From contig MKVQ01000005.1 of assembly GCA_001899635.1 (NCBI GenBank), positions 248,001 to 312,000 on the forward strand: 64,000 nt of DNA, in the 5' to 3' direction. The stretch comes from Myxococcales bacterium 68-20 (lineage in GTDB: Bacteria; Myxococcota_A; Polyangia; Polyangiales; Polyangiaceae). Positions within the stretch are counted from its first letter, which is position 1; each line of letters begins with the position of its first letter. The notes under the pieces are model-generated. The model was not told where the DNA came from. It worked only from the letters and a program-made list of their open reading frames with translations, and did not search any database. This document shows, piece after piece, positions 36,593 to 47,002 of the stretch. Made by a program: the position numbers and the translations under genes.

Positions 36593-37147
36593 GTGGGACA
36601 GGACGACCAACGCGTCCGCCGCATCAAGCAATACGTTTTGAGGCGGCTGCGGGAGGAGCTCGGGAACGCTCCTCGGGGTGCACAGGCGAAGCTCGCCAAG
36701 AGCCTTAGTGTATCCGGCGCGCACCTCAGCAACATGCTTTCCTCGACACCGTCGCGTCAGCCGGGGGAGGACTTCCGCCGCAAGGTCGCGGCGCACTGGG
36801 GAGTGACGTACGCGCAGCTCGAGGCGCTCGCTCTGGGCGAAGAGCCGCCATCATCGATCCCGAAGGTCGTCAACGGGCGTAGCGACGCCACCCCGCCGAA
36901 CCTCGCTGCTGCCGCCGCCGAATACCTCTGGATGCACGAGCTCCCACACGAGCTCCGCGTGATCGTCCGCGAGCAGGCTCGGCAGCACTATGCGTTCACG
37001 CCGACCGACCTCTCTCGCGAGGAGTGGCAGCGCATCCTGACGGGCCTCGAGCGAGAGGCCCTGGCGCTCGTCGCCTACCGCTCACGGGCCGGCTCGAACG
37101 ACGACGACAACAACCGGCAGGCACGCAAGCGACGCGCTCGGACCTGA
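36593..37147 (+). CDS. XRE-type helix-turn-helix protein
   Basis: A 184-aa protein starting at GTG 36593. An N-terminal HTH lies near 25-75 (GAQAKLAKSLSVSGAHLSNMLSSTP...RKVAAHWGVTYAQLEALA). The C-terminal half holds an unrecognised helical domain (LAAAAAEYLWMHELPHELRVIVREQARQHYAF) and a basic tail (NNRQARKRRART). Probably a DNA-binding repressor. The gap upstream has an AT-rich patch where its promoter may lie. Target unknown. Confidence 0.78.
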   Translation: MGQDDQRVRRIKQYVLRRLREELGNAPRGAQAKLAKSLSVSGAHLSNMLSSTPSRQPGEDFRRKVAAHWGVTYAQLEALALGEEPPSSIPKVVNGRSDATPPNLAAAAAEYLWMHELPHELRVIVREQARQHYAFTPTDLSREEWQRILTGLEREALALVAYRSRAGSNDDDNNRQARKRRART

Positions 37148-37175: not shown

Positions 37176-37655
37176 TCAGGGACCGCCGACGACGCGAAGC
37201 TCGACGCGGACCACCCCGGCACGCACGATGTCCAGCTGCTCGGCGGCACGCTGCGAGAGATCGATGATCCGATGCGCAGCCCGGCCGTTCGGGCCCCGAT
37301 CGTTGATCCGCACGCGGACGGTGCGGCCGGTGTCGATCCGCCGGACCTCGACCCACGTCCCGAACGGAAGCTTCTTGTGGGCCGCAGTGAAGAGCCGTGG
37401 GTCGAAGCGCTCGCCGCTCGCCGTCGGCTTGCCCGCGAACGCGCGCCCGTACCAGCTCGCGAGGCCCACTTGCTCGAAGCTGGACGAGCCCGGAGCCGCC
37501 TCCTTCGTGCTCGCGCGTGCCTGCCCGCGGTCTACGCCCGGCGCTCGCGGAGGCGCTTCGTTCCTCGGCGCAGCACAACCGACCGCAAGGAAGGTAATCC
37601 CGAGGAGGGCGAAGCACGCGAGCCCGCGCCGGAGGTTGCCTGTCAGTACGTCCAC
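37176..37655 (-). CDS. rlpA: RlpA-like lipoprotein, double-psi beta-barrel
   Basis: A 159-aa lipoprotein with lipobox LAVGC near residue 27. A complete RlpA domain follows: VGLASWYGRAFAGKPTASGERFDPRLFTAAHKKLPFGTWVEVR and VRINDRGPNGRAAHRIIDLSQRAAEQLDI. Family members cleave denuded peptidoglycan at the septum. The catalytic-region residues H and D are present in AAHKKLP and NDRGP. There is no SPOR domain, as in many short homologues. Divergent from the sigma-factor gene. Confidence 0.92.
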   Translation of the reverse strand: MDVLTGNLRRGLACFALLGITFLAVGCAAPRNEAPPRAPGVDRGQARASTKEAAPGSSSFEQVGLASWYGRAFAGKPTASGERFDPRLFTAAHKKLPFGTWVEVRRIDTGRTVRVRINDRGPNGRAAHRIIDLSQRAAEQLDIVRAGVVRVELRVVGGP

Positions 37656-37935
37656 TCGTTCATTCCGTGCCGAAAGCGAAGCCCCCCGGTCGGGACACTA
37701 GTACAGCGCGCCGAGCTTGGTTCCGGGTTCCGCTCGCGCGTCGGACGACGCGTTTCGTTCGTGCACCGAGAAAGCCACGGTGCCGTCACGTCGTGGCGTA
37801 ACCTTTCGGGCATCGATCGTTACGCTCCATCGCCAGTGTTACGGCGAGTGTTACGCCTGTTACGCCGGACCGTAACACTCCGTCACATCGAGTTTCGATG
37901 TCATTTCCACAGGTTGAAGTTCGCTCTCCGCACGG
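37656..37935. other. Divergent regulatory region between rlpA and the sigma-factor operon
   Basis: About 280 bases (350 if the sigma factor starts at 38005). The left half shows nothing I can name. The right half holds the GTTACG box array. Confidence 0.6.
37797..37878. promoter_or_regulatory. Array of six GTTACG boxes (operator-like)
   Basis: GTTACG occurs at 37819, 37838, 37850 and 37859, and its inverse CGTAAC at 37797 and 37871. The inner boxes are spaced 9-12 bases apart, close to one helical turn, and two of them are the longer GTGTTACG facing an inverted CGTAACAC. Such clustering is far above chance in this GC-rich DNA. It ends 57 bases before the first possible sigma-factor start, and the rlpA start lies on the other side. 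Confidence 0.7.
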
Positions 37936-38667
37936 ATGAGGCTGGCACGCGAGGTGCTCCGAGGACTCCCGCCGGCGGGAACGACGCCGAGCGCTTTGGA
38001 GAGGATGCGAGAGATGATGAACGCCCCCCGCGAGTCCGGTTTCTTCCCCTGCATCGCTGCGGATCGCTTCGAAACCGACGACGACCTCGTCGCGGGGATG
38101 CTCGCGAACGACGCGGGGGCGTGGCGCGAGTTCCAGAGCCGCTACGACCGCCTCATCATCCGCTGCATCACCAAGGTGACGCGCCGCTTCGCTTCGATCG
38201 TGAGCCAGGACGACGTCCGCGAGGTCTACGCCACGCTCTACGTCTCGCTCCTCGCGAACGACATGCACAAGCTTCGCTCCTTCGATCCGGAGCGCGGAAA
38301 CCGCTTCTCGTCGTGGATCGGCCTCCTCGCGATCAACGCCGCTTACGACTACCTCCGCTCGCTCAAGCGCGAGCCGCAGAAGGAGTGCATCACCGAGGCG
38401 ATGGAGCTCGTGTGTCACCTCCCTGACCCCTTCGAGCTCACGAGCGAGCACGAGCGGGCGACGATCGCGCAGCAGACCCTCGAGGACTTCAGCGAGAAGG
38501 ACCGCGCCTTCGCGGCGCTCTACTTCGGCGAGGGCATGGATCCGCAGGCGATCGCCGACAAGATGAACATCAGCGTGAAGACCGTTTACTCGAAGAAGCA
38601 CAAGATCCAGTCCCGCCTCGAGTCGGTCCTCGCCGCGCGCACCTCGCCCCGCCGAATCGCGGCCTGA
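37936..38667 (+). CDS. Sigma-70 family RNA polymerase sigma factor (ECF-like)
   Basis: A 243-aa sigma factor. The region-2 segment AWREFQSRYDRLIIRCITKVTRRFASIVSQDDVREVYATLYVSLLANDMHKLRSFDPERGNRFSSWIGLLAINAAYDYLRSLKRE is clear. Region 4 with its HTH is LEDFSEKDRAFAALYFGEGMDPQAIADKMNISVKTVYSKKHKIQSRL. No region 1.1 or 3, as in ECF factors. MREMMNAPRE at 38005 is an equally good start. No anti-sigma gene is adjacent; instead a lipoprotein gene follows after 44 bases. It is probably first in an operon and may respond to whatever binds the GTTACG array. Confidence 0.9.
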   Translation: MRLAREVLRGLPPAGTTPSALERMREMMNAPRESGFFPCIAADRFETDDDLVAGMLANDAGAWREFQSRYDRLIIRCITKVTRRFASIVSQDDVREVYATLYVSLLANDMHKLRSFDPERGNRFSSWIGLLAINAAYDYLRSLKREPQKECITEAMELVCHLPDPFELTSEHERATIAQQTLEDFSEKDRAFAALYFGEGMDPQAIADKMNISVKTVYSKKHKIQSRLESVLAARTSPRRIAA

Positions 38668-38711: not shown

Positions 38712-39527
38712 GTGCACCTCGCGCGGCTCCTGTCCTTTTGTGCCTCGCTCACGCTCCTCGCAGGCGTCGCGTCCTGCGAATCCCGGGAGGGCGACCAGCC
38801 GTCGCCTTCGGTCGTCCCGCCCCCCGCGGGGAAGGACCACCGCATCCACGAGATCCGGGATCCGGAGAGCCCCACCAAGGCCGCCCACGAGTCCCAGGTC
38901 GCGGTGAGCGGCGCGGTCGTGATCGCGGTCGATCGGTTCGACGAGACGCAGAACGGCCGCAGCATCGGGACGATCTACGTCCAGGACCTCGGCTCGAAGG
39001 AGCCCTACTCGGGCATCAGCCTCTACAACCCGTCCTTCATCCCGGGCAACCTCCGCGTCGGTCCGGGTGACGCGCTCGATCTCCGCGGCCAGTTCCAGGA
39101 GAACCAGGACATCCCGTTGAAGTTCGCGCCCGGCGCCTTCCTGGTGCAGCTCGCGAACGCGGTCGGCACGTTCCGCTTCGACGCCAACGAGCCCGACCCG
39201 GTCGAGATCGACATCAAGGATCTCGAGACCTACGAGACCGGGAGCAAGTGGCTCAACATGCTCGTCACCGTGAAGAACGTCACGGTGAACGGCAAGCCGT
39301 TCGGGAGCGGAGGCCGGCGCAGCTACAACCTCGCGGCACCGATCGAGACGGAGCAGAGAGGCTGCGATACCCCCTTCCCCAAGGTCCCCACCCTCGTGAA
39401 CTCGCTCGCGGACCTCGAGCCGCTCCAGCTCGCAGAGGGCGCCACCGTCAAGTCGATCACCGGCGTCGTCACGTTCTTCTGCAATCTCCAGATCGCTCCC
39501 CGCAGCGTGAAGGACATCGTCCTCTGA
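38712..39527 (+). CDS. Lipoprotein with OB-fold-like body
   Basis: A 271-aa lipoprotein starting at GTG 38712. The signal ends in the lipobox GVASC (Cys ~22). The mature protein is beta-rich (SQVAVSGAVVIAVDRF, GTIYVQDLGS, GDALDLRGQFQE, LVTVKNVTVNGKPF, AEGATVKSITGVVTFF), a two-repeat pattern like secreted OB-fold modules. No catalytic motif is seen. It lies 44 bases after the sigma factor and 4 before the M16-like gene, so it is in the same unit. Confidence 0.8.
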   Translation: MHLARLLSFCASLTLLAGVASCESREGDQPSPSVVPPPAGKDHRIHEIRDPESPTKAAHESQVAVSGAVVIAVDRFDETQNGRSIGTIYVQDLGSKEPYSGISLYNPSFIPGNLRVGPGDALDLRGQFQENQDIPLKFAPGAFLVQLANAVGTFRFDANEPDPVEIDIKDLETYETGSKWLNMLVTVKNVTVNGKPFGSGGRRSYNLAAPIETEQRGCDTPFPKVPTLVNSLADLEPLQLAEGATVKSITGVVTFFCNLQIAPRSVKDIVL

Positions 39528-45556: not shown

Positions 45557-47002
45557 TCAGCCGCCCTCGGGCCCCAGCGGAGGCGCGTTCTCGACAGGCC
45601 CGACCTCGTCGAGCTTGCGATAGATCGTACGCGTCGAGATGCCGAGGAGCTGCGCCGCGAGGGACTTGTCGCCCTTCGTGTGCTTGAGCGTCTCCTTGAT
45701 GACGCGAAGCTCGATCTCCGCGAGCGGCGTCCCCACCGGGAAGTCGAGCGCGCGGGGGGCGGCGCTGGCCGACTTCACGATCGCCTCCGGGAGATCGTGC
45801 TCAGTGAGCGTGTCGGCGCGCGAGAGGACGACCGCGCGCTCGATCACGTTCTCGAGCTCGCGCACGTTGCCCGGCCACGCGTAGTCCATCATCCGTTCGA
45901 GCGCGGCCCGCGCCACGCCGAGGCGCGCCTTGCCGTTCTTCTTCGCGTACAGCCCCACGAAGTGATCGACGAGGAGCGGGATGTCCTCGCGGCGCGCGCG
46001 GAGCGGCGGAGCGGTGACTGCGATGACGTTGAGGCGGTAGTAGAGGTCCTCGCGGAAGCGGCCGGCCTGGACCTCGGCGAGCAGATCGCGGTTCGTCGCA
46101 GCGACGATGCGCACGTCCGCCTTGACGGTGTTGCCGCCGAGCGGCTCGTACTCACCCTCCTGCAGGACGCGCAGCAGCTTCACCTGGACCTGCGGCGACA
46201 GCTCGCCGATCTCGTCGAGGAAGAGCGTGCCGCCGGCGGCCTTGGCGAAGCGGCCATCCTTCTTCGTGACCGCGCCGGTGAAGGCGCCGCGCTCGTGGCC
46301 GAACAACTCGCTCTCGAGGATCGTCTCCGGGATCGCCGCGCAGTTGACCGCCACGAACGGCCTCTTCGCGCGCGCGCTTCGCTCGTGGATGTAACGCGCG
46401 AGGAGCTCCTTGCCCGTGCCGCTCTCGCCTAGGACGAGCACCGTGGCCATGCTCGGCGCGGCCTGCGTGGCGACCTCGATCACGCGGCGCCACGCGACCG
46501 AGCTGCCGATGATCTCACGCTTCGTGAGCATCTTGATCTCGTCCTTGAGGGTGCGGTTCTCCTCGAGGAGCCGGCCTCGCTCCGCGGCCTTCCTGACGCT
46601 CTTCACGATCGTCATGCGCTTGAGCGGCTTCTCGACGAAGTCGTACGCGCCCTCGCGCATCGCGCTCACCGCGACCTCGACCGAGCCGTACGCCGTCATC
46701 AGCACGACCTCGACCTCCGGCTGGACCTGCTTGATCGCGCGGAGCAGCTCGAGGCCGGTCGTCCCCGGCATCATCAGGTCGGTCAGCACGACGTGAACGC
46801 GGTGGCCCCGCACCTGCTCGAGCGCGTGCTTTGCGTCGTAGGCGACGAGGACGCGCATGCCTTCGCGCTGGAAGATCTTCTCGAGCGACTCGACGTTGGA
46901 GCGCTCGTCGTCCACGACGAGGACGGTCGTGCCCTCCTCGGCCCCGGCGGTGCGCTCGATTCCTGACGCCTTGTCGTCGACCTGTGCCGTTTCGTCAATC
47001 AC
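45557..47002 (-). CDS. NtrC-family sigma54-dependent response regulator
   Basis: A 481-aa regulator starting at GTG 47002. Receiver domain at ~25-145 with phospho-acceptor D75 (VVLTDLMMPG) and the Lys in EKPLK. AAA+ domain with Walker A GESGTGKE at 192-199, GAFTGA at 239-244 for sigma54 contact, and FLDEIGELS for Walker B. A Fis-type HTH closes the C-terminus (KSLAAQLLGISTRTIYRKL). All parts for sigma54 activation are present. No histidine kinase is adjacent, so it is an orphan. The gene converges on alaX with abutting stops. Confidence 0.95.
   Translation of the reverse strand: MIDETAQVDDKASGIERTAGAEEGTTVLVVDDERSNVESLEKIFQREGMRVLVAYDAKHALEQVRGHRVHVVLTDLMMPGTTGLELLRAIKQVQPEVEVVLMTAYGSVEVAVSAMREGAYDFVEKPLKRMTIVKSVRKAAERGRLLEENRTLKDEIKMLTKREIIGSSVAWRRVIEVATQAAPSMATVLVLGESGTGKELLARYIHERSARAKRPFVAVNCAAIPETILESELFGHERGAFTGAVTKKDGRFAKAAGGTLFLDEIGELSPQVQVKLLRVLQEGEYEPLGGNTVKADVRIVAATNRDLLAEVQAGRFREDLYYRLNVIAVTAPPLRARREDIPLLVDHFVGLYAKKNGKARLGVARAALERMMDYAWPGNVRELENVIERAVVLSRADTLTEHDLPEAIVKSASAAPRALDFPVGTPLAEIELRVIKETLKHTKGDKSLAAQLLGISTRTIYRKLDEVGPVENAPPLGPEGG

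Follow-up and report, generated by a model that had tools for sequence, protein, structure and literature searches.

A probable sigma-54-dependent enhancer array upstream of an ECF-type sigma factor gene conserved in one order of myxobacteria

The intergenic region between an rlpA-like lipoprotein gene and a divergently oriented sigma factor gene of Myxococcales bacterium 68-20 carries a dense array of the hexamer GTTACG, which raises the question of what binds there and which of the two genes is controlled. A sequence-only reading of the window (the whole stretch of 64,000 nucleotides analysed here) had proposed six boxes, four direct and two inverted, that are bound cooperatively by a regulator of the sigma factor gene, rlpA or both.

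Anatomy of the GTTACG array and the promoter downstream

The array is real and far above chance. GTTACG occurs 12 times on both strands of the window versus 7.8 copies expected, and half of these copies (6/12) fall within 37797-37876, four on the plus and two on the minus strand. Six copies per 80 bp correspond to a Poisson probability of ~1e-15 at one place and of ~1e-8 across the 11.9-Mb genome. The arrangement GTGTTACG...CGTAACAC, reaching from 37836/37848 to 37878, was found as had been described. The proposed spacing of one helical turn is only roughly right: the start-to-start distances are 22, 19, 12, 9 and 12 bp, in which 12 and 9 add up to 21 bp, that is two turns. Unnoticed in the earlier reading, a -24/-12 element characteristic of sigma-54 promoters, TGGCACGCGAGGTGCT (GG-N10-GC), sits 67-146 bp downstream of the six boxes. 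The features of the region are as follows, with box offsets given relative to the -24 element.

37176-37655 (-): rlpA-like lipoprotein gene, divergent, sharing its intergenic region with the sigma factor gene; probably not a target
37797-37802 (-): GTTACG box 1, offset -146
37819-37824 (+): GTTACG box 2, offset -124, the same in relative L003
37838-37843 (+): GTTACG box 3, offset -105, shared by five relatives
37850-37855 (+): GTTACG box 4, offset -93, the same in L002-L004 and L007; GTTACA in L005
37859-37864 (+): GTTACG box 5, offset -84; -84 or -85 in relatives
37871-37876 (-): GTTACG box 6, offset -72, the same in L002 and L003; makes up a dyad with box 5, GTTACG-N6-CGTAAC
37881-37886 (-): variant box GTGACG, offset -62; several relatives have GTGACG in place of GTTACG
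37943-37958 (+): predicted sigma-54 promoter; TGGCAC-N6-TGC in relatives, invariant columns
37967-37971 (+): predicted transcription start, placed by promoter geometry
38014-38667 (+): gene for an ECF-type sigma factor; ATG 38014 is the most likely start codon, with 38005 and 38017 as alternatives
38712-39527 (+): lipoprotein-like gene, 45 bp past the sigma factor stop codon, syntenic within the genus

The -12 part of the element reads GTGCT, not TTGCT; the published myxobacterial sigma-54 consensus is TGGCACG-N4-TTGC(T/A) (PMC9765219). The start of the sigma factor gene given in the list of open reading frames, 37936, must be wrong, because it lies upstream of the promoter, which would then be situated inside the reading frame, and because L002 has a TAG stop codon in the stretch between 37936 and 38014. 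Aligned starts of orthologues place the start at 38014. At sigma-54 promoters, transcription begins ~12 nt past the GC of the -12 element. The gene product matches TIGR02937 with 67 bits versus a cut-off of 42.9 and PF04542 above its cut-off, and its match to region 4 stays below the Pfam cut-off; with regions 2 and 4 only and a length of about 200 aa it has the make-up of an ECF sigma factor. An RNA element in the leader was considered and dismissed, as no Rfam covariance model matched 37500-38200 at E <= 1.

A genome-wide search with exact patterns, as the sequence-only reading had suggested, returned clusters of three or more boxes only at this locus and at C9:140951-141007 (L332:3952-4008; L035:1482-1538). 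This second array is noncoding, spans 57 bp, has four GTTACG boxes (three direct, one inverted) and lies 127-178 bp upstream of a further -24/-12 match (CGGCACCTCGCTTGCA). Downstream on that strand there is no clear gene, merely a possible 97-aa reading frame, and the region has no Rfam match. The C9 array is a candidate for a second target or a small RNA.

Conservation of the boxes relative to the promoter

The earlier reading had made its proposal depend on whether the boxes are conserved ahead of orthologous sigma factor genes, which they are. Within the genus, the offsets -105, -93 and -84 (or -85) from the -24 element repeat in six genomes, in which identity amounts to 84% in the boxes and 100% in the sigma-54 columns as compared to 42% at other positions. 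In other genera, boxes repeat at -80, -71, -58, -50 and -40. Most boxes are located 40-150 bp upstream of the -24/-12 element, which is the usual position of enhancers, and the pattern of repeated activator sites at recurring positions, roughly 70-150 bp upstream, is present. When all 6-mers in the 160 bp preceding the promoter are counted, GTTACG ranks first in over-representation (106 copies versus 6.0 expected; 32/36 loci), with GTGACG as a common variant, so that the box can be written GTKACG.

The promoter is equally well preserved. TGGCAC-N6-TGC was found upstream of 19 of the 21 orthologous sigma factor genes whose upstream regions were compared. A wider set of 77 loci was taken from a named collection of genomes (Labilithrix, Polyangiaceae, Sorangium, Sandaracinaceae); of these, 71 have a -24/-12 score of >= 9 of 12, and a score of >= 10 of 12 is reached by 70% of the loci versus 4% of random segments from the same loci. 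The paralogous sigma factor gene of L134, a relative, lacks an array as well as any comparable promoter. Since the boxes lie upstream of a conserved sigma-54 promoter, the array is most likely an enhancer for an activator of the AAA+ type.

A multi-site array acting on the sigma factor gene, as originally proposed, is thus strongly supported by conservation; the rlpA arm of the proposal is not. In distant genomes the array remains with the sigma factor gene where rlpA no longer adjoins, and the strand facing rlpA carries no convincing -24/-12 element, the one poor match being in L007, for which reasons rlpA was rejected as a target. The same data bear on the idea that a conventional repressor or activator, i.e. 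not an enhancer-binding protein, occupies the array and controls the sigma factor gene, rlpA or both. Such a regulator would fit the mixture of direct and inverted boxes and the intergenic region held in common with rlpA. However, the boxes hold defined positions with respect to a conserved promoter of the sigma-54 type, for which an enhancer-binding protein is needed, and in distant genomes they go with the sigma factor gene rather than with rlpA, making this explanation very unlikely.

Also beside rlpA, and syntenic within the genus, lies a reading frame (36593-37147, plus strand) for a 184-aa protein that appears HTH-like by eye and has no Pfam or NCBIfam match. On the other side, the gene at 38712-39527, for which a weak DUF5689 match is the only one, may be co-transcribed with the sigma factor gene.

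Search for the activator

Promoters of the sigma-54 type require a bacterial enhancer-binding protein (bEBP). The genome encodes one rpoN (single PF04552 match) and about 68 bEBPs. Around the sigma factor gene, the flanks of some 100 loci hold no bEBP gene save one at 45557-47002 (-), which encodes a response regulator of the NtrC/AtoC type, lies 8 kb from the sigma factor gene and is ~96% identical in two relatives. This candidate was rejected: it is found near the sigma factor gene in G003 and G006 only, and an orthologue exists in G010, which lacks the sigma factor gene.

Candidates were therefore sought by their distribution, using bEBPs extracted from the own genome, from G017, which carries the sigma factor gene, and from G008 (8/16 of its set), G010, G015 and G022, which lack it. 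The profiling covered bEBPs only, namely those with a counterpart in G017 and apart from about six divergent ones of the own genome. Three bEBPs of the own genome have a clear partner in G017 and none in the compared genomes devoid of the sigma factor gene. One of them, encoded at G000:C41:14402-15790 and unlinked to the sigma factor gene, combines an FHA domain (PF00498, 2.9e-15) with a Sigma54_activat domain (PF00158, 3.6e-60). Its loop reads GAFSGA, not GAFTGA, its C-terminus is HTH-like by eye with Pfam HTH_8 unmatched at E 0.001, and boxes do not cluster in the promoter of its gene. Among 38 genomes, this FHA-bEBP and the sigma factor gene are both present in 20 and both absent in 16, with one discordant genome of either kind (P = 1.2e-8); the other two of the three, the bEBP families L255 and L228, served as controls, gave P = 0.04 and 0.008 in this profiling and were discarded as regulators, as their distributions do not fit. 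The discordant genome bearing the sigma factor gene, G028, lacks both the boxes and the -24/-12 element.

Extension to 184 genomes of the order yielded 88 with both genes, 15 with the sigma factor gene only, 12 with the bEBP only and 69 with neither (P about 5e-23, or about 1e-21 without the six genomes used for choosing the bEBP), and counting at the level of genera gave 47, 5, 7 and 25, respectively (P about 2e-10); these Fisher P-values are too small because relatedness was ignored and presence or absence is not phylogenetically independent. Twelve of the 15 genomes with the sigma factor gene only belong to one family. Box presence follows the bEBP even among the genomes that bear the sigma factor gene: of 50 such genomes, boxes were found in 32/36 with the FHA-bEBP versus 1/14 without it (P about 8e-8), and the 14 loci of the latter contain one copy of GTTACG in total.

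Together with the conserved promoter and the recurring box offsets, these distributions argue that the array probably is an enhancer (UAS) through which a sigma-54 bEBP drives the ECF sigma factor gene, with the FHA-bEBP as its most likely regulator. It is conceivable that a different bEBP binds this enhancer and that the FHA-bEBP merely shares its distribution, considering that the genome holds about 68 such proteins, that the gene of the named one is unlinked and that profiling covered part of them. Against this, the two other candidates of the screen fit far worse and box presence tracks the FHA-bEBP within sigma-bearing genomes, so that we regard a different bEBP as unlikely. Another reading treats the boxes as repeated -35 elements by which the ECF sigma factor regulates itself and rlpA. 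Some ECF promoters have an AAC-containing -35 element, which CGTAAC resembles, and the boxes do occur on both strands. However, 191 aligned boxes revealed no conserved -10 element at a fixed distance, and past the first flanking base the information stays at <= 0.27 bit; moreover, the clustering has a spacing of 9-12 bp, and bEBP-less genomes that have kept the sigma factor gene lack the boxes. An autoregulated ECF promoter with a -35/-10 pair at fixed spacing was therefore rejected, and this reading has hardly any probability left.

Some loci depart from the general pattern. L098, L105, L131, L136 and L140 have kept a strong -24/-12 element (often TGGCACC-N5-TTGCT) without GTTACG boxes and without the FHA-bEBP, which was probably replaced there by another activator. 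In Sorangium, the sigma factor gene, a relative of the bEBP (in two copies in one strain) and the -24/-12 element are present, yet GTTACG and GTGACG are both absent, and thus the site may have diverged. The stretch GCAGTGAACCCTCGTTAACAGCTC, common to L101 and L103 upstream of the -24/-12 element, is possibly such a diverged site.

A proposed relay and its relation to known systems

Taken together, the sequence comparisons indicate that the boxes very probably serve as the landing site of a sigma-54 activator in a two-step gene switch, which is conserved across one order of myxobacteria. Several dimers of the bEBP would bind cooperatively to GTKACG half-sites, most of which lie 40-150 bp ahead of the -24/-12 element, and contact RNA polymerase-sigma54 at 37943-37958 through DNA looping. 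The AAA+ ATPase of the bEBP would open the promoter, and the ECF sigma factor gene, transcribed from about 37969, would provide a sigma factor that then turns on its own regulon. The FHA domain suggests an input from Ser/Thr phosphorylation, in which case phosphorylated Ser/Thr proteins may set the activity of the bEBP. ECF sigma factors commonly, albeit not universally, have an adjacent cognate anti-sigma gene. Tentatively, and with somewhat less than even confidence, we propose a dedicated, order-wide relay, in which the FHA-bEBP reads Ser/Thr phosphorylation and has the single multi-box sigma-54 enhancer as its main target, and in which the ECF sigma factor operates without an evident anti-sigma factor. 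If so, the control point would be transcription of the ECF gene rather than release from an anti-sigma factor.

If true, the switch would, via sigma-54, place an ECF sigma factor under an activator that binds phosphopeptides. It offers a testable regulator-target pair for myxobacteria, whose genomes hold dozens of bEBPs (about 68 here), most of them without known targets. The same approach, which combines promoter anatomy with the question whether regulator, target and box occur in the same genomes, can be used to assign further orphan activators.

The literature searched contained no described FHA-bEBP with a GTTACG-type box or an ECF target, and queries for GTTACG in conjunction with sigma returned unrelated papers only. 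The box, the assignment of regulator to target and the order-wide relay are absent from that literature; the logic leading from a bEBP via sigma-54 to an ECF sigma factor and the use of repeated half-sites are known. As in the FHA-domain enhancer-binding proteins of myxobacteria, the FHA domain precedes the Sigma54_activat domain in the candidate regulator. Nla28 of Myxococcus xanthus acts at short direct repeats that occur in clusters of 3-5 ahead of TGGCACG-N4-TTGC(T/A) promoters; its half-site is CT(C/G)CG(C/G)AG, and its candidate promoters number about 70 (PMC9765219). The array described here is likewise myxobacterial and likewise provides several repeated sites per sigma-54 promoter; however, its box is GTKACG and does not match the Nla28 half-site, and the genome contains two exact clusters only. 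The closest parallel in logic is the HrpR/HrpS-sigma-54-HrpL cascade of Pseudomonas syringae, in which enhancer-binding proteins activate a sigma-54 promoter in front of an ECF sigma factor gene (PMC5263251). Here, too, an ECF sigma factor gene has a sigma-54 promoter under predicted bEBP control, but in this case the candidate is an unlinked FHA-domain bEBP and its putative site is the GTKACG box.
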